In this document: piece by piece, positions 13,164 through 48,700 of the stretch
How positions within the stretch are numbered: the stretch's first letter is position 1
How the letters are laid out: the number at the start of each line of letters is the position of its first letter
Source: Mesaphorura yosii
Taxonomy: Eukaryota > Arthropoda > Collembola > Poduromorpha > Tullbergiidae
Assembly: GCA_009869945.1 (NCBI GenBank)
Contig: WIXG01000016.1
Location: 124,001-188,000 of the forward strand
DNA length: 64,000 bases
Direction: 5' to 3'
The notes under the pieces: generated by a model
Told to the model about the DNA's origin: nothing
Database searches by the model: none
What the model saw: the letters and a program-made list of their open reading frames with translations, nothing else
Position numbers and translations under genes: made by a program

Positions 13164-13525
13164 TTAAACTAGGTGCCCCTCGTGCTCAATGTTGTTGGGA
13201 CTAGGGTTTGGGACAAACGTCGTCAGAATGGAGCCTCGGTGCGGCGACAGGGGACCGTTGCTCGAGATCAGACGACCGTTCGGTTGATGGAAGCTCGACA
13301 TGTGGTCAATGATGTGGTTGGTGGAGTTGAGCATATCGTGAGAGGCAGAGTGAGGAATTTGACGTACCGACCCATTGCCGACAGGACTTCCGAAGCTGGC
13401 TGGGGGATATGGAACATAACGTGCTTCAGGGGGAATATTGTACAGTTCAGGAATCGGCGGAACTTGTGGTGGACGGCTTGAAACAGGACGCGGGGTTGTA
13501 CGTCCGTAATTTGGTGTTTTATCAC
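13164..13525 (-). CDS. sns: Nephrin-like last exon: proline-rich tail ending GHLV
   Basis: 362 bases including stop TAA at 13164-13166. The 3' site TCTGTACAG is the only one nearby that keeps the frame; the AG at 13557 would give an early stop. It contains RPPQVPPIPELYNIPPEARY, a class of SH3 and YxxP (Crk-SH2-type) motif, and ends EHEGHLV. Confidence 0.9.
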
Positions 13526-16500
13526 CTGTACAGAAACGATAAGGTTGATGACACACCTGTTAACATGTTGGTAAGCATTCTGACTTACTGAATCCTTGAT
13601 TGTACGCGTTTCTTCGTAAGGCGTCGACGTAGCCATCATCCTCGTGATGCCGAGGTAGTTCGACCGGTGAAATGTGCTTTGGTTGGCGAGGAAGTGTACT
13701 TGCTCTCAGTCCTCCCATCTCACCATACGGATACCCTGGCGCGTGATGATTGATCTGCTCAACTAAATACGTCGAAACTCCGGTTCCTTTCCCGTGGTCA
13801 TCCTGTTGACGAACATAAACAGGCGTATTTTTACTACATGGCCAGGCAAATATTTTCATGTCGTGCTTCACTGTGATGAGGATGAACTTACAATGTATTC
13901 GTCGCAATGATTTTCGCCATGTGAATAACTCGCGCTTTTCTCAGAAATTGAAGAAAGAGTCTCTCCAGTGACAGTTTCGTTGTATGAGCTCGGGGCGTAC
14001 ATTTCAATTGTTGCAGATTTGCTGCTCCCTTGTTCGCTCGCTGAAAGTAAAAGAATGTCATCAGTTCCAAGTAAAATAGCACAATTACAGCTTCTTCTTA
14101 GAGATTGTGGAATTCACGCATTAGGTGAAGTCACCAATAAGTTAATGATATGTCGCTTTTCTTTAGCTTCCCACTTTTCAGAACTTTTAGCGATCAAAAT
14201 AAATTGTATACGGAGGAAGAGAAAACAAAAATTAAGTTTTATACCCTCATCCTGTTTCGTCTTCGTAGTGTTACTTTTCTTGTACATGAAAAAGGACACG
14301 ACGATAATATTGAGGAGGAGCAGGAAGGTTCCAATTACAGATACCGAAACTATTACGATTTTCGGAATGTCTGCTCTTCCGCTCAGCATCAGCGAAAGCT
14401 GCAAATCGCGAGGACCTGAAAATGTGAAATAAAAGTTTAACTCTCACCTGTGGACAATCGTTTCTTTGAGCGCCGTTGCATATAGCAGGCGATGAGAAGC
14501 ACGTTGAGCAGAAGAGTAACAACCCCGAGAACAGTGAAGATAATTAGTATGAGACGCGAAATTGGGTTATTTTGGAAATCTCCGTCTGGATTAATTGTAA
14601 GAGGCTCAATCCCACCACCTTTAAATCCACCACCAATTCAGAAAAGGAAAAGAAATAGTTAGAACAGTTAGCCAGGTCGAAAAAAGGCAGGATAAATAAT
14701 TATTCTTTTGAAATTATTTGAAGCAATAGGACAAACGGGCAAACGGGATAAAACTGAAAGACAGAATTTTCCGACGTTACGGTAGAGCTAAAGAGTCACC
14801 AACTGACAAAGTAAATGCAACGCAAAAGCAATTAAAGTTAAGATCAACCAAGCCTGGAAACTTACTCAGCGTTGACCCACGAACAATCTCTGTTGTGTAA
14901 TTGCTCTCGCCAAGAACGTTAGCCGCCATGATCCTGAATGAATATTCCGTTCCTGTGGCCAACTGCTGGACCGTAAATATTGTCGCATTTGGAGGAGACG
15001 TCTCAACGGTCCGTTTCTCATTTGTCTTCATGTTGGTGTATTTAATGATGAACGATTGCGGGAAACCACCATCAAATCCAGGAATCCAAGTCAGCGTTAC
15101 GGCATCTTGAGTAGAGTTCACAGCGTGGAGGCCCAAGGGCGTGTCTGGAGCCGAAGTTACGTCCAATTGAACGTGGTGTGTCGCAAAATCAATCTAAAAC
15201 AGAAAATCATTCAGTTTCCTTCCATGTCCCTTGACAGATTAGGGTAGATTTAAAAGTCACGCTAACCAAGTTTGACGCGATGCACTCATATTGGCCATAA
15301 TCGTCTGACTGTACATTTTTAATGATCAAAATAGATTCCCAGGTCATCAAGTCCACCTGAACAAAAGCATCGCAGGTTAGAGAATTGGCATTCGACAATA
15401 AAACCAGGACAAACCTGATATGAATCATGTGCGGGTCAGCGAACAGCGAAAAGATTCCGACTTACCGAGTTGTTTTGAATGGCATATTTGCCTGGACGGG
15501 AGTCTGGCGTGATTGAGACACCTTCTCTGCTCCATGAAAACGTGACATTAGGAGCTCCTCTTGCCCGACATGTTAATTTTCCAGTCTCTCCCTTGTTGCT
15601 AGCCGCTTTGGCCATTTGTGGTGATAAATCAATGTCTGGTTTATCTGTGCCATTAAAACCAAGACGGTACATACAAATGGAATGAACATATACTTCAGAT
15701 GCTGTGGCAAACACTTAGTAAACCATTACTATCGATTTCATCTTAGACGCACTAGTCAAACTCTATTCTTTTCTCCTCCATCACCTTTGCTCCCATTGTT
15801 TCACTTTCATCTCATGAATCTAACTTCTACTCTGCTACTTTATGCAAGACGTAGAGAGCTTTCTTTCGCACAATACAAAAATCTTTGGAGTGGGCCTTGC
15901 ATAAGCATGGAACAGGCTCACAGATTCCGTATCAGTGAAGTGCATTCTTACGCCCCATTAGGCTCAATTCGTTCAGTATTGAAAAAGGCTGGGCAAGTTT
16001 CACATTAAGAATTTTTACCGAATTCTCTCAAAATGTATTCGCTATTCCTTTAAATTTTAGAAACAATATTGTTTGCAGTACAAACTTACGTTTCACGATG
16101 AGAAAAATCGATTTGTTGACTGGTTCTCCAATTCCATTGTCCACAATGCACAAGTAGGATCCAGCGTCAGCCTTAGAGACACCTTTAATAGTCAGGTAGG
16201 CTTTGTTGTCCAGAAACTTGTGGTCTGTGGGGCGCGTGATGTTCATTTCTTCGTATCTCCATTCTATCATTGACTGATCAAGTGGATTCGCGTCGATCCC
16301 GCATTCTAATGATAAATGTCAGTCATTATCAATTTGATATGACTGAAATAAGCATATGAAGTGAATAATTACCAAGATGGGCATCTTCTCCTTGGTCCGC
16401 CATAATCCAAGACTCCTCCGTTACAATGGAAGCGGGATCTGAAGCCCAATAAAGCAATTCATGACACGTTATTGGGGCCAATAAGCCTTTCCCAGCCTCT

Positions 16501-19500
16501 TTGTCTGTTACTTACACTGAACTTCCAATTCAATTATCTGAATCGTGGATCCTTCGCTGTTGCTTGCCTCGCACTCGTACTTTCCTTTGTCTGTGCGACT
16601 GACTTCAGTGAAATTCAACACAGCCCCGTCCACATGTAGTTTCTTGGCCACCGATTTTACTTGGGACCCATTTTTATTCCACTTGTACTTGATGACATTG
16701 GGATTGCCCTTTGCTCCTGTCGATATAACTTTGCCCTCACCCTCAACCACGCTCACTTTCGTCTCTGCCGAGTCTTGGAAGATAGGTTTGTCTGAAATAT
16801 GACGTAAATTCACATTATTAAGACTTTTAGTTCTTTTTTCTATTCACAAGCGCAAAGCAATAAAAATGAAAACCCTTAACAAACTTACAATTCACATCCA
16901 ATTTGATCGATTCCCTTTTGCCCCTTTTAATGGCTGGGTTCTTCACTTCGCATTCGTAAATAGACTGATCCATGGATGCGGTCAAGTTCAGTTCGAGTCT
17001 GATTAGGGTCTTCTTGCCACCGAATTCCCCCTTCTTTATTACAGGCTCCGACTGCGGAGGAAGTTCTTGCCCGTTTCTCCAAAATGTAACTTTCGACGGG
17101 GGATTGGAAGATCCAGACTCGCACGTCAAGTAACCTTTCTCGCCTTCTTTCAATTTCTTTGGTTGGCTTTGAATTGTCATTCCGGTTGCAGGAACTGTGG
17201 ATAAAATATGCAATCAGTGCATAACTAAGCATAGTTAAATCATAATAAATCTTACAGAACACTTGGAAGGTCACGGTTTCGCTGAGAGGAGTCGTGATGG
17301 CCTTGTTTTTAGCTTCACATTTAAATGGAACTCCGTTGTCGGTCATGTTCGCATCCATCGAAAGTTCAGCAGTGACAATATTACCGTCGGAAGTCAGAAC
17401 CGAATCCACCTATTATTCAAAAACGACAATTCAGTCACTGTTCATCTGAATCTCACCAGCAGTCGAGTGTCAAGCAATTGTTATGAACTTACTTTCTTCC
17501 CATTTTTGTACCAAGCCAGAGTGGCTGGAGGATGACCGCCAGTGGAAGTGCATGTTATCCGGTGCATTTGTCCAGCAGTGATATTTGCGACTCCCTTGTA
17601 AATGTACGGCTGGCCAGGCGGTTCTAAACACGGCCGACGAATTTATCATTAGTTTACACCAGCCTAAGGAAGAATTTTTGGCCAGTTACGAGGAAACTAG
17701 TAACTTACGGATCACGTTCACGACATGCGGGATTGATTTGGTGTCTCCGTAGCCACGATTCACCGCCTGACAAGTGAACACAACTTTCCGGTCCTCTTTG
17801 TCAATCTTCACCGTTACATTGGACGAAGTAATAAATCCCCCATCAGGAGACGACGTCGTTGATGTATGCACGTTGTTTAAGGCCACGCCTCCTTTGAACA
17901 GAGCGATTTCCACCGCAGGATTGCTGTTTGAACTTGCACATGTTAGCGTAATGGTGTCATTAATTTTCGCCTCGTTGGGTCCGGTCATTTTGACTTCTTT
18001 TGGTGGATCTGCGAGAAAGACAAAATCACAACCAAATGCTTTGAACTCGGGGCAACTCATTAGCATTGTTTCTAATGTCATGCTGGTATAAAACTGGCTA
18101 ATTTGAGAAGGATTAGAAGCCGCGCTCAAATTGAATGGCTTCTGTAACAATGAGAGCAGTAGATTCAAGTACTGACGATCATTCCGCTCGTGCTCTCGGA
18201 GCCTGGATTCCAAAGCAAAAAGAGGTCGGGTGGAAAGTGGGAATGAGTGACGGCTGCTCGAGGAATTTAATACCGAGAATATTCATGAAATGAAAAAAAT
18301 TAATGCAACTCTGACTTGACAATGACATGCTCGAGATATTGCCAGAACCAACGCGCTCGAATAATATCATTCACCGCTTTGGCTTTAGGCGCTTTCTTTC
18401 TCTTTAGTAAAACTGCAAAATGCTTGAACCACGAAGAAAGTGAGAAGTGAAAGCGGAAAGTGTCGAGGCAGGCGTTGGGCAAAGAACACAACAAACGGAA
18501 TATTCGAGTTTGCATTCCGATCCGACCTGACGTCAAAAGTCAAATTATTTGCCTGCCCTCACTTCGAGTTCAACTCTATGCCTTTGTCGTTTTTGCGAAA
18601 CACAAGTCGAAACTCGAAATCCTCAGGAAAGCCACGAAGGAGCGCAACAACTGATTGAAAAATTAGACGTGCTTTAGGCGCGGCGAAGTAGGACGAAATA
18701 GAAGTGAAGTGAAAGAGAGAATTCCTGGAGGAGCGAAACTTGTATGGCTAATGGTTGTTCTCGACATATGGATGCGGGAGAGCAGCTGGGAGACAAGGCT
18801 CATTTTTCTCTCCTCGCCTAACAAAGGTAGCGCGGAGCGTTTTGGATACGAGGCGCAACTTTACCAAACTATTACTTCTAATCTCATCAGCATTCAAGTT
18901 ATTTCAATATTCGAGACAAGTAGGAAATGATACGACAAAATGATATGAAATTCTCTTTGTAAGAACTTAGACGTAATATATCTCTCTCCGCGTCGGCTCC
19001 CGCGAACGTGCTACTTTGTCGCCCTCCTCGGTTTCATTCAATAAGAAAAGACGGTAATATGCTGACTTTAAATGTCAATTCAAAACCATTTTTGACACGC
19101 GGCAATCTTTCTTCGCCCTCGCCATGTAATCATAAAATAAGCGCCTGTTCGAAGGCGTGAGATTTTCTTGCTGCACATTCTGCCTGGGTGTGTAGAATAT
19201 CAATTTTAATGGAAATTCCTCGCATTTGAGTGAATGAAACCTTGGCCTTGATACTGTCATACCGTCATTCCTAATTGCCAGCTTCTTTCTGAATGAGTGC
19301 AAGCACGCGCTCACAATGCACAAGCTCCAGGAAAGCACCAGAGCCTTTGTTTCTTTGCGTCCTAAACATCGATTACGCATGCATGGATACAACGGACTCT
19401 GTGCTCGGCATTCAAATCACTGCGATTAGTCCTGTATTGACTTTTGTTCATACTACAAATGACAATTAAATATTCAAAGCAGAAGCATTTGGGATGCAGA

Positions 19501-22500
19501 AGGAAGGAAGCTGTTTCACGCTGGAGCTGAGCGCCGGAGTGTGGATTATAAACGGATTTACTTCCACATTAAATTTTGCCGTCCTGTATTAGCTATTAGC
19601 TACCGCTCACGACTTACAGTAAACAGACAGAACGACGTCCGCCAGCTTCGGAGTCACGCTCATCATGTTGGATGCTTCGCAGCGGAATGTAGCCATGTCA
19701 TCTTTCTTGCTTGCCACGAAGGTGTACTCGTTCCGTGATTCCTTGCCAAAGTAATCGTACGAAGTGTCTACCATGACGTTGTTCCTGAACCAAATCAGTT
19801 GTGCCAGCGGATTTCCACCACGCGACACACAGATGAGTGTTTGGGTCTTGTTCTCCTTGATTGGAGTGTCTTCGTTGTAGCCGTCAATTCGTGGAGCACC
19901 AGGCGCGTCTGAATGCATATGTAATTTCAAATTTAGTTCCTGATGAATAATCTTAAGAACTCGACGTTTTACAAAAGTTTCGAAGCTTTCGCTTGTGCTC
20001 AGTCTTACATTGAACGCTTAGGAACACGGACACCCTCTGAGGTCGTGAGAAAGCCGGATGCCTGGCTTCACAGGTGTATTTCGCTTTGTCATCTTCGGAT
20101 GTTGGAAGGAATTTGATCTTGCTCCGCGTTGTGTTCTTGAGAACATGCAGAGTTCCATCCACGACTTCAATTTCTTCGGTGGAGTCCGTGCGAGATTCTG
20201 CAAAGCAAATTGCAAATGAAAATGAAACAAGCGCAAAATTTCGTTTTATCTTTGTGCTCTAACGAAGTCGCCACCGCCATTTTGGCATACACTTATGCGT
20301 GCCATATCATGACGGGACCACCGTGTATTTCGGTGTTCCTGAGGCGGGCCGGCCACCTGTGGCTTCAGGAGCGCGAGGGCTGAGTATTTTACGGGGTAGG
20401 GCGAATTCAACTTCAGCCGAAAACCGCCCGTGCCCGTAGAGGAGAAGGAGCAGCGGCCACCCATGCAAGGGCTGGGCCAACTGCTCCAAATACTAATTAA
20501 AATTCACATACGATTGATTGAATAATTGTAACTTGATATTCTTGCTAATGGAATAATTTTTGTGTAATGTGAAGCTTTTGGTATGTTTGTCGTACATTGA
20601 TGTGATTGTCTTTTGTATTTGAGTGTTAATGCGACAATAAATTTGATCGTTATTTACGGGGAGTGGGGGGGGGAATTCACAACAAGTGCAAAGCTTTTCT
20701 CTTGTGAAACATTTTTAGCTGTCACCCATGCACGAATTAAAGTCGATTTAATTCGGTTTCAGAGGAGTAAAATGGAAACGAGAAGAGCACAAAAGCGCAG
20801 CAGTCGCATTTTGGCACGCAGTCGAATTTTTATGATGAATATGGCCGTCAGCTTGCGACTTCCTCCTCCCTGCTTCAGACTAGTTGCAGTTTTTGAGATT
20901 TTTGCGCTTTCTAATGACCAAACTTAAGCACAATCGTGCGTATTTAGTTGCAAACGCAAAACTAATTTCGACTAATGGCCGCTGTACGAAAACAAAACTC
21001 TCCTCCGAGATTCCATTAAACGGAGCATGTTTTCATTGTGAATGCCCACATGTTGAAGTAATTATTATTACGAGCGCTAACGATCTCGGGTGGGAGGCGA
21101 ATTTAGCGAAACAATTTAATCTAGGCACGTTCGATTGTGCAGTCTTTTGATTTTTGCCGAGTGATTTTGTTTCTGATTGCAGTTTAAGGGGGATAATTTC
21201 AGACTTACCGGCTCGGAGAATAATATCATTTCTGTACCATACAATCGTGGCTGCTGGTCGCGCTTCCTTCGCAACACATTCCAGTTCAGTCGGAGACTTC
21301 TCCCGCAGAGTGATCTCGGCATCAGCTGCGTGGTTGGTGATGTCCACAGAGACGGGTGGCACTAGAAACAGAAAGAGGTGCATTCATTAAAGTGGGGTCA
21401 TAAGGGGTCAAGTCGCCAATATCTAAAACTCATCATAAAGTAATCTAAATGCAAAATTTTTGCCGAAATAAATTAGAATTTATTGTATTCTCGCTCATGC
21501 AATTTTCTGTGCATGCCAAGATTAATTTGTAACCGAAAAACAGAGCAAGTGGCATCTTTCCTTCATTCGATTCGAATACGATCAGTCTTAGAACGATTTT
21601 TGCGCACCCAACCGGCCGAGATAATTCAATCCACAAGCGTACGTATTTCGTATATGGTAAACAAAGTTTATCATTCTCATCATTCTGGTCTACGATGTAC
21701 ACATGCTAATTTGAATGAATTCCCAGAATAGAATACCGAGACACGATCCGCATGAATAATGTTAACTTTGCCACTACAATCGTCTGCACTTCAAATTGTT
21801 GAAACGAACTTGCATTTTTGTTTCTGAGCCTAAAGAAAATGAAATTAGATTCTTTTCATCTGTTTTGTTCTTTGAATTCGGGTGACATAATCTGAATGCA
21901 CTTTTTCACAATGGTCGGGTTAAGTGCTCGCGAATAAATTCTTAAAAGAATTCGTGAAGCTCAGAAGTAATAAAAATAGTATTAATGGAATTCCAAAAAT
22001 TCATGTTTTGATATTTGTGTCGTGGTTTTCTCCTCAGGATGTTATGCTGATTTTTTGCCTCTGCAAATATTCAAGCGAATTCCTAAGACGAATTCTACTC
22101 TGCCTCGCCATGCTCTTTGCCATTTCTTTACTCTACTCGCTCGTCGGCCTAATTTTGAATTCTGGAGTTATGTAATATTCTGCAAAGATAAGAAAAATGC
22201 AAAAATGCCATGTCAAGGCTCACGGTTATGGGCCGTGCCATTGTCATTCTTAGTATTGAAAAGAGGAGACTCGCGTTCCTGTTATTTCAAACTGAACGAA
22301 AATCTCATCGCACGGCGGTCTTTGTTCTGAAACGGTGGTCCAATGCAGCGCAGTGCATTCCTCATTTACATATCACCGTGATTTAACTTCGTGAGAAGAA
22401 TTTCACGAGAATGTGACTCATACTGATGAAGTACGCATAAAATTGTCTTCTTATTCCGATGCGTGTGCAATGCAGCCCAAAACCCGGAGAGAAGAAACGG

Positions 22501-25500: not shown

Positions 25501-28500
25501 AAATATTATAAACTCGCTACCACTAGAAAATGCGGGGCAGATAAAATGTTGATAAAATGCTGGCAAGATCGCCGGTTTCTTTTTCTCTCTTCAATTTCGA
25601 GTCGGGTTGGTCTCGGTTGTGGATGTCAAATTGTGAATGTGTTACATTCTGTGCGTACGTTCGAGCGCTTATGAGCGTGCACTGCACGAGGAATGGTGGA
25701 GGAAACTTTTAATGGTCTACACATTCTCATTTTTCATAGAAAGTTGTCATAATTTTGATCTCTTCTTCTTGCTCGAGTGATTCTATCTCCTGATGAAAGA
25801 ATGCATTCACCGAAAGTACGACGGCACAACTTTCTCGCTGGGAGAAGGTCGTAAGTTTTCTTTACTCCTGTCCTAAATGACAATTTATTTTATTAATCTT
25901 CAGCGCCAACCGAATGTTGGACAGTGGGAGGAAGGTTAATCGGAGCAGCAAGAATCAAGTTTCAAAACTTGGGTAACTTCTTGTTTTTGTTTCTTGTCTT
26001 AAATTTCCGAGCTTGGGACTGGCTATTTGTCTGCACACTTTGTCAGTCAGCGAAGAGACCAAATTGTTTTCAAAACATTGTCAGCCAGCCAGCCAAAGTT
26101 TAGTTTCAACGAAAAGTTCAACCAAGGTGACAGAACCAAAAGCGAGCGGCTTACCGATGACGTTCAGTTTTGCATCCGCTCTGATTGCCTTGTTCGTTCT
26201 GGCCGGACCGACCTGACACTGGTATTCGGCAATGTCGCTCAGAGTCACGTGCTCGATCCGAAGGTTGTGAACTCCACGATCTGCATCGCCAGTCATCGAA
26301 TAGCGAGGAAAATTCGGGATTTCACGAGGAAAACCTGCGAGACAGACACAAAAACACATTTGATTAGAATAACTTGAATTATCAGGCGATAAATCGCGCG
26401 TGCACGCAATTCTCCACTCGCACGTGCCTTTGAGTGTGGCGCGAGATCTTTGTGTGTCGAAAATAATTACTTTTTCAATTATTTCATGAAAGAAAGTAAA
26501 CTGCGAACAAAAAACAGAAGTGTAATTTTTTTGATTCATCGAATCGTGGTAAAGCAGAACTCTCGTTTGGTTCTTTCTCTTTGTGGAAAGTTCGTTTGGG
26601 GAGTCGAGTGGAGGAAGATGTTGAGGAGAGAAAGGCAGAGCAGAAAATAGGTGAAAGCAGAAAGGCATTGGCAAAGTGCATGACGCCTCTTTTCTGAATT
26701 GAAAGAAAATGGTGAGCTGATTTAACTCGTCTATCACGAGTTCTTCATCGTTTTTCTCCACCGTCATGTGAAGAAAATGGTGCCTAATGGAGGTTGATAA
26801 AAATGTTTCTTTCTTGATTACAGTCGGAATATTTCTCACAGTTGGAATTCCTCTCTTCGTTTCTTCGTCTCTGATTATGTTCAATACGAACGAAGGCAGT
26901 AAATATTATTATTATAGAAAGTCGGCTATGCGCCTCGTCCAACCGAACATGAACATGGAACGGAGAAGGCGAAAGCAGCAAAAGCAAAGAAAAAAGTGGA
27001 AGTGACTGAGCAGTTATTTGAAGGAAAAAAAGACTGAAGATGCAACTCTTTTAATGCTCATTCTCGCGTCTTCCTTTCTTTCTCTCGCTCACATTTTGCC
27101 TCTCGTTCCTTTGGTATTTTGTTTCCTCACACTTTTATGCACGAGCTTCCATCAAAGCGGAATCGCATAATCCTCGTCTTAATCAAAGAAAAATTGAGGC
27201 GCCATTGTGGAAGCCGAAAACGAACGCTTCAGAAGGTAGACGAAGAGAAAGCGGAGAGTAGAAAGTAAGCAAACAGAATTTCTATCGGATTGGGAACGAA
27301 AACCAGTCCCGAGTCTTAAATGAAAGTCAGGCAAGCCAACGACGGTGCGACGGTGGGCGCAAATGAAGATGAACCGACTCTCGTCGTAAGCGCGTGTAAC
27401 TCATCCACTCAATCGTATTCAACATTTCCGTATTTTCTCTTCCCCCTTCACGCTTGATAATTTAACCAAATCCTCGTCACTCGTTTTCTCGTTGCTCTCG
27501 TCACAATGCCTTCCCGTCACAGGACGAATGACTTTGTCCTGACGAGTTAACGAGTTGAATTCAGCGGAAGATATAAAATTTATTATGCATATTTATGAGG
27601 GAAAAGTTCTAAGGTAAGCAGTACTCAAATTCGTGGATTCACACTTAAAATTAAATTGGCCCCAGTTTATCAATCTCTGGATGCATTGTAATATCTTTTC
27701 CCAAAGTCTCCAATCTGAAACGCGACCAATATCGAGTCACGGGCGACAATCATACAGACTTGGCTTACAAATTTATTCTTTGTAATTCTGAATTCTTACG
27801 ACAAGATTTACCGGAGCCAGCGACGTAAACATCGAAAAAGAGATGCAATAATTTTCATCAAGAGAGGAAACTTGGAAGGGCCAATTTGTAATGGATCCGC
27901 ATTGCAGTTTAATGAAAAATTTATGATATAATTACGCAAAGTCAGCGATACGTTTTGCCAAGAAGAAAAAATGATGCAAGATTTTCCTAATACATGGCAA
28001 ATACATGCACTCAGCTTTCTCTGCCTTGCTCGAGAACAGAGTAATTTGCCATGAGTACATGCGCCAGCAGAGTTACATATCCGAACAAGACGGCAAGCGG
28101 CCTGAGAATGTACGATCAGGCGACCAAGTTAAGAAACTAAAGTTTGTCTCCTTAGTTTTGAGCTTTCCTCCAGCAGCAGCACGGCGATGGATGTTATCTA
28201 TTTGACTTGATGTCTCCGCATCTTACCAAACATGGACAAATGCTCTCGCTTCCACACAAGTTTTTCTCTCTCCTTCCACTTTCTAGTTCTAGTTTTATTT
28301 CCATACTTAAACAGATTCGTAGAAAGCCTCCAAACTCCGTCGACGAACGGCCGTCTGCGCAGGCAGAATATTTCGCTGTAATATGCACATTACATGCCGT
28401 GAATGGAACTTTCTTAAGTAAAGCAGGGCCAAATGTGTAACTTTAAACTTCAGAATCTGCGATGTGTAGTTTAGAATATTTCCAATACCGAGAGCAAAGT

Positions 28501-46500: not shown

Positions 46501-46649
46501 TTGGCACATACCCAGTGCGAATCCGTCTTTGGTCCATTGAGCATGACCGGCTTGGTTCTCAATTTCACACCGAAGAATCGCCGTATCACCCAATTTGATT
46601 TCCACGTCTTCAGGTCGTCTGCGAAAGGATTGCTGCTGTGCCAAAACTT
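13164..46649 (-). CDS. sns: Nephrin / sticks-and-stones (SNS-Hibris) type Ig receptor; first exon not identified
   Basis: Single-pass adhesion receptor; in insects SNS/Hibris pair with Kirre/Roughest in myoblast fusion, nephrocyte diaphragms and cell sorting. Exons: 46649-46512, 26334-26155, 21361-21209, 20197-20009, 19908-19618, 18008-17709, 17623-17493, 17409-17256, 17194-16889, 16791-16516, 16438-16373, 16305-16090, 15644-15466, 15356-15267, 15193-14866, then 14618-14448 or 14415-14245, 14040-13892, 13802-13589, 13525-13164. All are GT-AG and in phase, giving about 1297 residues without the signal peptide. Order: nine Ig domains (about 1-890), fibronectin III (891-999), membrane segment (1000-1056), tail of about 240. 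WTKDGFALG plus YQCQVGPAR in Ig1, TPGFDGG-like WIPGFDGG in FnIII, and ATIEMYAPSSYNETVTGETL in the tail are SNS-family marks (from memory). Nine Ig plus FnIII excludes Kirre/Roughest, which have five Ig. Most domain borders are phase 1, as usual for Ig exons. Confidence 0.93.
13589..13802 (-). CDS. sns: Nephrin-like exon: cytoplasmic tail
   Basis: 214 bases encoding DDHGKGTGVSTYLVEQ, YPYGEMGGLRASTLPRQPK and DGYVDALRRNAYNQGF. Several tyrosines sit in acidic context. Confidence 0.88.
13892..14040 (-). CDS. sns: Nephrin-like exon: cytoplasmic tail, conserved SNS motif
   Basis: 149 bases encoding SEQGSSKSATIEMYAPSSYN, ETVTGETLSSISEKSASYSH, CDEYI. The ATIEMYAPSSYNETVTGET block is, from memory, the most conserved tail segment of insect SNS/Hibris and includes candidate phosphotyrosines. 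Confidence 0.93.
14245..14415 (-). CDS. sns: Nephrin-like transmembrane exon, version B (alternative)
   Basis: 171 bases, phase 1-1, exactly the length of version A. It encodes PRDLQLSLMLSGRADIPK, a hydrophobic span (IVIVSVSVIGTFLLLLNIIV) and basic MYKKSNTTKTK. The acceptor TTTTCAG has a strong pyrimidine tract; the donor is GTATAA. It lies 32 bases after version A, too close to be spliced to it in the normal way. Confidence 0.82.
14448..14618 (-). CDS. sns: Nephrin-like transmembrane exon, version A (alternative)
   Basis: 171 bases, phase 1-1. It encodes a linker (GGIEPLTINPDGDFQNNPIS), a hydrophobic span (LILIIFTVLGVVTLLLNVLL) and a basic stop-transfer QRRSKKR. The acceptor AAAG is preceded at a distance by a pyrimidine tract; the donor is GTGAGA. 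It is one of two tandem copies (see version B). Confidence 0.85.
14866..15193 (-). CDS. sns: Nephrin-like exon: fibronectin type III domain
   Basis: 328 bases. It first completes Ig9 (IDFATHHVQLDV) and then encodes the FnIII domain: APDTPLGLHAVNSTQDAVTL, TWIPGFDGGFPQSFIIKYTN, LATGTEYSFRIMAANVLGES. The hallmark Trp and Tyr positions are present. Confidence 0.94.
15267..15356 (-). CDS. sns: Nephrin-like exon: C-terminal part of Ig9
   Basis: 90 bases, 30 codons: VDLMTWESILIIKNVQSDDY, GQYECIASNL. The donor GTTAGC is slightly atypical. Confidence 0.9.
15466..15644 (-). CDS. sns: Nephrin-like exon: N-terminal part of Ig9
   Basis: 179 bases encoding KPDIDLSPQMAKAASNKGET, KLTCRARGAPNVTFSWSREG. First Cys and the Trp are present; ends phase 0, donor GTAAGT. 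Confidence 0.92.
15645..16089 (-). other. Nephrin-like intron between Ig8 and Ig9
   Basis: 445 bases; nothing recognisable. Confidence 0.8.
16090..16305 (-). CDS. sns: Nephrin-like exon: rest of Ig8
   Basis: 216 bases beginning ECGIDANPLDQSMIEWRYEE and ending GSYLCIVDNGIGEPVN, IFLIVK. Both Cys and the Trp are present. Confidence 0.93.
16373..16438 (-). CDS. sns: Nephrin-like exon: start of Ig8
   Basis: 66 bases encoding PASIVTEESWIMADQGEDAHL, with the typical GEDA-L strand just before the Cys of the next exon. Confidence 0.88.
16516..16791 (-). CDS. sns: Nephrin-like exon: Ig7, lacking the first Ig cysteine
   Basis: 276 bases, phase 1-1: KPIFQDSAETKVSVVEGEGK, VISTGAKGNPNVIKYKWNKN, GKYECEASNSEGS. 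Ser (TCG) stands where the B-strand Cys is expected; the F-strand Cys is kept. Confidence 0.93.
16889..17194 (-). CDS. sns: Nephrin-like exon: Ig6
   Basis: 306 bases, phase 1-1: PATGMTIQSQPKKLKEGEKG, LTCESGSSNPPSKVTFWRNG, YECEVKNPAIKRGKRE. Both Cys and the Trp are present, with an N-glycosylation site NLT. Confidence 0.94.
17256..17409 (-). CDS. sns: Nephrin-like exon: C-terminal half of Ig5
   Basis: 154 bases encoding VDSVLTSDGNIVTAELSMDA, VPFKCEAKNKAITTPL, VTFQVF. The upstream intron is 83 bases. Confidence 0.92.
17493..17623 (-). CDS. sns: Nephrin-like exon: N-terminal half of Ig5
   Basis: 131 bases encoding PPGQPYIYKGVANITAGQ, ITCTSTGGHPPATLAWYKNG. It ends in phase 0 with donor GTAAGT. 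Confidence 0.92.
17709..18008 (-). CDS. sns: Nephrin-like exon: Ig4
   Basis: 300 bases, phase 1-1: PPKEVKMTGPNEAKINDTIT, LTCASSNSNPAVEIALFKGG, VFTCQAVNRGYGD. Both Cys are present. The core Trp position after the first Cys appears to be Leu or Phe. Confidence 0.93.
18009..19617 (-). other. Nephrin-like intron between Ig3 and Ig4
   Basis: 1609 bases, with no recognisable coding or RNA feature. Confidence 0.8.
19618..19908 (-). CDS. sns: Nephrin-like exon: Ig3
   Basis: 291 bases, a whole Ig domain in a symmetrical phase 1-1 exon: YAPGAPRIDGYNED, TLICVSRGGNPLAQLIWFRN, ATFRCEASNMMS, LSVY. Both Cys and the core Trp are present. Confidence 0.94.
20009..20197 (-). CDS. sns: Nephrin-like exon: C-terminal half of Ig2
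   Basis: 189 bases, ending KYTCEARHPAFSRPQRVSVF and LSVQ; second Ig2 Cys present. It contains SKIKFLPTSEDDKAKYTC, the F-strand signature D-x-KAKYTC. Confidence 0.92.
20198..21208 (-). other. Nephrin-like intron inside Ig2
   Basis: 1011 bases, including a run of nine G at 20665-20673. No gene seen. Confidence 0.8.
21209..21361 (-). CDS. sns: Nephrin-like exon: N-terminal half of Ig2
   Basis: 153 bases encoding VPPVSVDITNHAADAEITL through ELECVAKEARPAATIVWYRN. First Ig2 Cys and core Trp are present. 3' site TTTCTAG, donor GTAAGT. Confidence 0.92.
21362..26154 (-). other. Nephrin-like intron between Ig1 and Ig2
   Basis: 4.8 kb without recognisable features. AT-rich and interspersed with short open frames that show no homology. 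Confidence 0.8.
26155..26334 (-). CDS. sns: Nephrin-like exon: C-terminal half of Ig1
   Basis: 180 bases encoding FPREIPNFPRYSMTG through EYQCQVGPARTNKAIRA to LNVI. It supplies the second Ig1 Cys and lies 20.2 kb from its other half. 3' site TCTCGCAG, donor GTAAGC. Confidence 0.92.
26335..46511 (-). other. Giant 20.2-kb intron inside Ig1
   Basis: No exon, RNA gene or mobile element is recognisable. Only scattered short open frames occur, the longest being 185 codons at 35198-35755 on the minus strand, which resembles no family I know. Small simple repeats occur, such as GGAA repeats near 32370. Confidence 0.75.
46512..46649 (-). CDS. sns: Nephrin-like exon: N-terminal half of Ig1
   Basis: 138 bases, phase 1 to phase 1, encoding VLAQQQSFRRRPEDVEIKLG to WTKDGFALG, with the first Ig Cys in LRCEI. 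A strong 3' splice site (T-rich, TTTGCAG) precedes it, so a signal-peptide exon must lie upstream. An AG at 46636 offers an alternative in-frame start at QQS. Confidence 0.9.
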
Positions 46650-48700
46650 CTGCAAAGACAAGAAAAAAGGAGTCGTAAGCACTTAAGTTTTGCTAATAAA
46701 TTCGATTTACCTTCAGACTTAACATAATAGCACGAATGGTAAATGCAAACTCCTATTTTTAGCATCGGCTTGCATTGTGTCTCACGCAGAGAAAGTTTGG
46801 GAAAAGTTCTAGAATCCTGAGAACTATCTCTGGTCTAGTGCGTAGTCTATAATTACATTGTGCCTGCAAGAGAAAGCTCGCAAATACTCTGGAATTACAA
46901 AACTCCAGGACTCTCACTGAATTAAGAATGTTTAACGAACTTCTTCCGTGTCATGACCTACATTTGTCATAATATTGGAAAGCTTTGTGGGAATGTCCGC
47001 AGCAAATTGCAGGGCCAAACCTCGGCGTTTTCTACAAACAAACACTTCAAACTCACAGGCGGGCTGGATATCCTTAAACACCGCTGCGCCGTCGTGTCCT
47101 GGTTTTGTAGTTTTTGAATTCTTGCATTTCCCTGTTTATTTGCACTGCTGTTAAATTTCTGTGATAATTAGATCTATTCTTCTCTAACTTCATTAGAGAC
47201 ATGGCACAACAAGAATATCGAAGCAAGGACTCGCCTAGCCGTTGGCGTGTGCAGTCTGCAGATTGCCTTCACTGCACTTCAGGGAGCACTCGCGGTGGCA
47301 GTACTCTTGAACTTCGCATTCATTCATACGTGTCAGTTCTCTACGCTTCTGCTTTCTCTCCTCTTTCAAAACACTCCACGTCCACGCCGCACTGCAACTC
47401 ACTCCACACAAGCAGGAGAGAGGAAAGTTCGAGAGACGTTCCTTACAATTATCATCATAATAAAGGAAGACATTGAATAATTGGTCGTGTTGAGACAGAG
47501 AAAAGTAAGAGATAACCACAAGTCTTAATTAACGACCTTCCCGAATAATAAATTATTCCAGCAGGACCAAGCCAAGCCAAAAGGCCATGGCCGCGCACAA
47601 AGCAAACTTCAGACAGTGCAGTGGAGAAGTCCTTGCACATTTCGCGCCGGAGTAGACTATCATCTTTGTCAGTGAAAAACGCGTGCCAACTTAGGATTCG
47701 AGACGAGAATGGACGCACACTGAAAGACCATCCAACGCGTTGTTGGATAATCCACGCGGTTTCAATTTTCGCATGCAAATTTCAGGCCACAAGTGCTAAT
47801 ATCGACACGAGCATGCCTCTTGTAAGTTATGGGAAGTTATTTCACTCCCCGGCCTAAATCCGGATCCAAGCCGCACTTCAGTTAATAAGTTGAGCCTAAG
47901 CAGCACATTTCAACAACAAAAGTCGAATATTTCATTTCTACATCATCGGCGCTCTCCTTGTAGTTTTACTTGAAGATGTTGATGTTGTTGTGCAAGTGAG
48001 AAAAGTGGTGCAGCAAAATTCAAAGAGCTGATCGAATTTTCCAGATTGAAAATTCTGGTCTACTTGAGTATGAAATCTATTTCAAATAGATTTTCCGACC
48101 GAGTAAATATAATACCAAGTAAGGAACTCACAACAACACAACGCATTAAGGATTGGGCGAACAGCGAACTAAACAACATGCCAGCCACTTTCGTAGTATG
48201 AATGACAACGGCAGCGGCAGCAGAGGAATCGACGCAAAAGTGGAAAACCTCTCCGGTTTAAGAAGATCGGCTCATGCTTGCTTGTTCAAGAACGCTTGAA
48301 TCAGCTTATTCTTGAGCGCTATCGAATTACTGCATTAGTCAGTATTCTACATTTAAATTCGTAGATTGATGGCGATAATAAAAGGCGTTATGAGACAAAA
48401 TCCGGTCCCAAATTTCAGGTCGAGCTTTGGGCCGCATTTAAATATCATCGGGCTCGAAGGCTCATAAACTAAATGAATTAATTTATTCCCTGTAATTACA
48501 TAACTCACTTCAAAAAGGGAGTCACTTCAGACGTGCCGCCAAGCCACGCTTAATCATACAGTAAACGTCGAAGGAAGGGAAAGTCGGTGAGAGGATTTGG
48601 TGTAGGCGAAGGGAGAAAGCGAATGTGAATTAGAATATAAACACGCCCGAGATTCAAGTTGGTGAAAAAGCTGTTGAACTCCATAATATGCAGTTCAAAC

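Follow-up and report, generated by a model that had tools for sequence, protein, structure and literature searches.

Two probably mutually exclusive transmembrane exons in a nephrin/SNS/SYG-2-type receptor gene of the collembolan Mesaphorura yosii

Introduction

Nephrin-type receptors act in cell (muscle) fusion, in nephrocytes, at filtration slits and in synapse choice. SYG-2 of C. elegans and SNS and Hibris of Drosophila are built from an Ig array, one FnIII domain, one transmembrane (TM) span and a cytoplasmic tail. Nephrin shares this layout, and a splice variant without the TM region is described for human and rodents (PMC3144718).

Alternative TM exons are described for Dscam in Drosophila and other insects (PMC3364881). 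With Dscam1 exons 17.1 and 17.2, the TM1 form is largely confined to dendrites and the TM2 form is enriched in axons; its authors state that this sorting may be governed by the juxtamembrane domain on the cytoplasmic side (PMC2566808). The sequence-only reading of the DNA studied here had named Dscam as the precedent for alternative TM exons, and both sources bear this out. As for the mechanism of exclusion, exons 2 and 3 of alpha-tropomyosin reportedly cannot be joined, as the branch point lies too near the upstream donor. The same arrangement blocks joining of OGDH exons 4a and 4b (PMC7969005).

The M. yosii gene described here likely encodes a receptor of the nephrin/SNS/SYG-2 type in which the stalk, the TM span and the juxtamembrane region are specified by mutually exclusive exons, while the FnIII domain and the tail would be common to both forms. 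It resembles Dscam1 exon 17 in having two candidate alternative exons for TM span and juxtamembrane region in a large Ig/FnIII adhesion receptor, but it belongs to a different gene family.

Domain layout and family of the receptor gene

The window, i.e. the whole stretch of 64,000 nt that was analysed, corresponds to C16:124001-188000 (contig WIXG01000016.1) of the 93-Mb genome (1127 contigs). The gene lies on the minus strand and is at least 33 kb long. Two exons for the first Ig domain are followed by further Ig exons, the FnIII exon, the TM pair and three tail exons (Table 1). The first Ig domain (exons within 26156-46650) is interrupted by an intron of ~20 kb, far above the 16 introns between E3 and T3, and the intron between E2 and E3 measures ~5 kb.

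Table 1. Features of the nephrin-type gene, in positions of the window
Feature	Description	Position	Strand	Basis or remark
E1	half 1 of first Ig domain	46504..46650 (C16:170504-170650)	-	~20 kb upstream of E2
E2	half 2 of first Ig domain	26156..26338 (C16:150156-150338)	-	Ig1 search
E3-E14	ectodomain, Ig-like domains	15267..21361	-	joined open frame; Pfam Ig families; SYG-2 structure
E15	FnIII exon, phase 1 end, precedes the candidate alternative pair	14866..15193	-	reading frame, GTAAGT donor, fn3 match
Intron upstream of exon A	247 nt	14619..14865	-	two CTAAC sites, pyrimidine-rich stretch
Exon A	stalk, TM span of 24 residues and basic juxtamembrane region MQRRSKKRLST; 171 nt, phase 1-1	14448..14618	-	
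A-B gap	32 nt, GT...AG; retention gives a stop	14416..14447	-	yUnAy sites 17 and 22 nt from A donor
Exon B	stalk, TM span of 24 residues and juxtamembrane region MYKKSNTTKTKQDE; 171 nt, phase 1-1; donor GTATAA, weak	14245..14415	-	
B-to-tail intron	204 nt	14041..14244	-	gene model
T1	tail exon, predicted to be common to both forms	13892..14040	-	gene model; genome search
T2	tail exon	13589..13802	-	gene model
T3	tail exon, carries the stop codon (13164)	13164..13525	-	gene model

Pfam found Ig families and one fn3 stretch on the gene model. The fn3 match fell on E15 (E 6.5e-11), which also matched FN3 structures such as those of titin and fibronectin. With E2-E5 (end of Ig1 to Ig3) as query, the best solved-structure match was SYG-2 (4ofy_D, E 8e-31), with Kirrel1 and Roughest next in rank. 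An Ig array, one FnIII domain, one TM span and a cytoplasmic tail thus give the same layout as in SYG-2, SNS/Hibris and nephrin. The assignment to the nephrin/SNS/SYG-2 type, already proposed from the letters of the DNA, is supported by the SYG-2 match together with the Ig and fn3 families. The gene does not fit Dscam: SYG-2 is the best match to the part between the last portion of Ig1 and Ig3, only one fn3 stretch is present, and the genome has a Dscam-type gene elsewhere, on C442.

This Dscam-type gene (C442:20001-39000) has a tandem array of about a dozen Ig7-like exons with a spacing of ~420 nt (12 such open frames counted by eye), and one copy matched the Dscam structure 3dmk_A with E 4.6e-36. 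In the 19 kb, read on the minus strand only, a single TM span lies within an open frame of 970 codons, and no TM exon pair was therefore seen at this locus.

Queries with A, B and the tail exon T1 against the 93-Mb genome returned only themselves among the matches listed, by a tool that scores best candidates only; the other copy was absent from the A and B results, and no paralogue with the same exon pair was retrieved. A weaker Ig1 match at C16:358270-358416 (43% identity over ~50 residues) looks like a nephrin/Kirre-like first Ig exon and is perhaps a paralogue. At the contig end (C16:450152-460151), a multi-Ig gene with a TM span was found; it was rejected as a nephrin since its TM region was judged by eye to be PTK7/Off-track-like. 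The cuticle domain Chitin_bind_4 had 66 matches in the genome, which, together with the Ig7-like array of the Dscam-type gene, suggests an arthropod source.

Structure and reading frame of the exon pair

Exons A and B have GT-AG borders, and their coordinates verify the earlier claim of two consecutive exons of 171 bases with phases 1-1. The frame was kept in all four possible joins between the FnIII exon and the tail: A alone, B alone, A plus B, and the skip of both. That either copy links FnIII to the tail in frame, as had been read from the sequence, is therefore correct. Joining A to B gives two TM spans in one chain, while skipping both gives a TM-less form with an intact frame. The latter recalls the TM-less nephrin variant; there, however, the alternative is TM or no TM, and here it would be TM A or TM B. 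When the 32-nt gap is retained after A, the frame reads GES and then a stop.

The stalk (~18-20 residues), the TM span and the juxtamembrane region all differ between the two products. The TM spans, 24 residues each as cut by hand, have Kyte-Doolittle means of 2.74 (A) and 2.68 (B). Over the first 12 residues, the juxtamembrane region of A has a net charge of +5 and that of B +4, with acidic residues beyond. Similar length (171/171), compatible splice sites, the same frame and sequence similarity, which are among the features by which mutually exclusive exon pairs are recognised in PMC3228551, were found here.

Two further observations concern exon B. Its frame runs open for 43 codons beyond the donor before a stop (14114-14415), so that a B product made without use of the GTATAA donor would have another, short tail. 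A stronger donor-like site (TCT/GTAATT, score 8.0) lies within the exon at 14338 (14339-14415); its use would break the frame to the tail.

The 32-nt gap between A and B

Mutual exclusion draws its most specific support from the gap of 32 nt, as compared with 61-1609 nt in the 16 other introns from E3 to T3 (a set without E1-E2 and E2-E3). The gap has roughly half the length of the shortest intron observed. Across the genome, the gaps estimated from 34 pairs of neighbouring kinase-domain matches, chosen by eye among the matches listed, measured 63-339 nt; possible protein inserts could only lengthen these gaps, and very short introns with a length that is a multiple of three would be missed in this set.

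Open-frame GT-AG joins in 264 kb peaked at 70-79 nt at all three settings. With a flank score >0, both flanks were coding-like in none of 42 joins of 20-49 nt and in 35 of 163 joins of 50-130 nt. Three donor-shuffled controls gave 3/48, 3/32 and 3/32 for the short joins and 13/131, 15/120 and 4/102 for the longer ones. The strict flank score (>0.1) says little, as it left 12 real joins versus 7, 6 and 1 in the three controls. Eight joins of 40 nt or less were obtained at the first setting; four of them were inspected by eye and none was coding-looking. A 56-nt join inspected in the same way was not coding-looking either, while joins of 59 and 60 nt were.

By the AG-exclusion rule, the branch point is confined downstream of the nearest upstream AG. 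This AG lies 25 nt upstream of the B acceptor, so the branch point for B should fall within the gap. Two yUnAy motifs are predicted branch points there, at 17 and 22 nt from the A donor, and any other adenine in the gap is also less than 32 nt away from it. For the distance from donor to branch point, PMC5740500 gives a steric limit of ~50 nt, a value also used in PMC7969005. Given the length of the gap and predicted branch sites below this threshold, splicing from A to B is probably impossible. A branch point inside exon A instead would likewise make the joining of A to B impossible.

Mutual exclusion is therefore likely to be an intrinsic property of the predicted geometry, as it is said to be in alpha-tropomyosin. 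The likeness to alpha-tropomyosin and OGDH lies in a predicted branch point too near the donor of the upstream exon; it differs from OGDH, where PMC7969005 places the branch points far from the acceptor, in that the entire gap is only 32 nt and the branch points are predictions. The sequence-only reading had proposed mutual exclusion without mention of the gap, which now gives it a physical reason.

Exclusion by docking and selector RNA pairing was considered and rejected, as the flanking introns and the gap showed no excess of mutual pairing (z +1.47, +0.71 and -1.18; 200 dinucleotide shuffles each, single sequence).

Strength of the splice sites and possible use of both exons

With a site matrix trained on the other sites of the gene, which flatters those sites, the A donor scored 2.2 and the A acceptor 1.8, the B donor -1.8 and the B acceptor 7.5. 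The other sites of the gene ranged from 5.3 to 12.2 (15 donors) and from 6.6 to 12.2 (16 acceptors). Both the A and the B donor thus fell below all 15 other donors, and the A acceptor fell below all 16 other acceptors. Larger pseudocounts changed the values to 3.0 for the A donor, 3.1 for the A acceptor, -0.4 for the B donor and 7.0 for the B acceptor. Two CTAAC branch-point-like sites lie 40 and 49 nt before the A acceptor, with no AG in between.

Weak and unequal sites suit a regulated competition, but they would also be expected of an exon with hardly any use, which is the principal doubt. Real use might be limited to a single exon of the pair, the other being an ancient duplicate whose sites have weakened and which is seldom or never included. 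The GTATAA donor of B, and an A acceptor and donor below every other scored site of the gene, speak for it. On the other hand, both frames are intact, each with a 24-residue TM span, Gly and Asn in register and a basic inner flank, and A has its CTAAC candidates with an AG-free stretch to the acceptor. Both exons also carry the synonymous codon bias of the gene (A, P 0.0077; B, P 0.0067; 3000 simulations each against composition-random codons). Use of a single exon is thus considered unlikely.

Likeness and origin of A and B

The best alignment of the two products was gapless over 32 residues, with 9/32 identical and a BLOSUM62 score of 64. It contains the features described in the earlier reading, namely a shared glycine (VLG/VIG), LLLN and M-x-(R/K)(R/K)S. 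When B was permuted separately within stalk, TM span and juxtamembrane region, which keeps the composition of each segment, this score was reached by 2 of 2000 shuffles with gaps and by none of 4000 without gaps. Compared with 21 TM-like segments taken as controls from 264 kb of the genome, A and B each scored 32 at most. Among the 210 control-control pairs, 206 scored 37 or less; the other four, near-duplicates by eye, reached 64 or more and were the source of all draws at that level when control pairs were sampled at random (70 of 4000).

Searches of the window by tblastn agreed with this in one direction. With A as query, B was the best non-self match (E 0.002), while with B as query and composition correction, A was absent from the list (up to E 5; E 1 in a second run). 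Omitting the correction gave E 1.5e-4 in both directions. No convincing third TM copy was present in the window, the next match to A being at 22545-22438 with E 0.18. Other exons were used as queries in the same window: at E <=1, E3 and E7 matched nothing but other Ig exons of this gene, E11 had no match, and T1 matched one stretch with E 0.49 that contains a stop. Taken together, a likeness of A and B beyond TM composition is supported by the residue comparisons.

On the DNA level, 45/96 positions of the block were identical, namely 10/32 at codon position 1, 23/32 at position 2 and 12/32 at position 3. The likeness is mainly at position 2, as expected from hydrophobic composition, and position 1 is close to chance. 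With such an identity, the duplication, if real, is old. The sequence-only reading had put too much weight on the equal length of 171, since the alignable parts are offset by 3 residues and the length was not inherited column by column; the family, the splice-compatible TM exons and the likeness itself stood.

The TM spans may also have had separate origins and converged on a nephrin-type TM pattern, which would be compatible with mutual exclusion. In its favour are the low DNA identity concentrated at codon position 2, an equal length that is partly a coincidence given the offset, and the composition-corrected B query that misses A. It is opposed by the alignment, which runs over 32 residues without a gap, shares Gly, LLLN, Met and Ser between A and B and beats segment-composition shuffles, and by the control TM pairs, whose scores apart from the near-duplicates stay far below 64. 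Separate origins of both spans are accordingly held to be quite improbable, while the two copies as they stand appear old or partly convergent.

That A is instead an alternative last coding segment, with its donor unused, a stop three codons on (GES*) and a tailless anchored receptor as product, B alone giving the full receptor, would fit the reading on from A and its weak donor but is very improbable, because A has a phase-matched donor (CAG/GTGAGA) and no AATAAA or ATTAAA is present in 14447-14041, the latter being weak evidence as the 664 nt downstream of the regular stop codon lack these motifs as well.

Discussion

The preferred reading is a receptor with two exons of which the splicing machinery can probably use only one at a time, which would yield two forms of one receptor that differ in their membrane anchor. 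The gap would be too short for removal as an intron, and with the branch point for the B acceptor inside it, close to the A donor, one spliceosome could not use both sites. Every transcript would then take either A or B. The choice is probably made by competition, with a poor acceptor and a middling donor on the side of A and a good acceptor and a poor donor on the side of B, and it may be tuned by further factors.

The two resulting receptors would be identical in ectodomain and tail and would differ in the anchor and the juxtamembrane region. By analogy to TM1 and TM2 of Dscam, the A and B forms might be sorted to different membrane domains or might differ in shedding or clustering, in which the function of the choice may lie.

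Dscam exon 17 and the TM-less nephrin are the known precedents. An alternative TM exon pair in the nephrin family was not found among the open-access papers covered, and the sequence-only reading knew of none either. We lean slightly towards a nephrin-family anchor that is switched by exons exclusive through spliceosome geometry, in a genome whose Dscam-type locus, as far as read, has one fixed TM span; the choice of anchor known from Dscam would then have been invented in a partner-recognition receptor. If both exons are used, one gene would provide two receptors with the same partners and different anchoring, sorting or cleavage. If true, Dscam would be joined by a second adhesion receptor whose membrane anchor is chosen by splicing.
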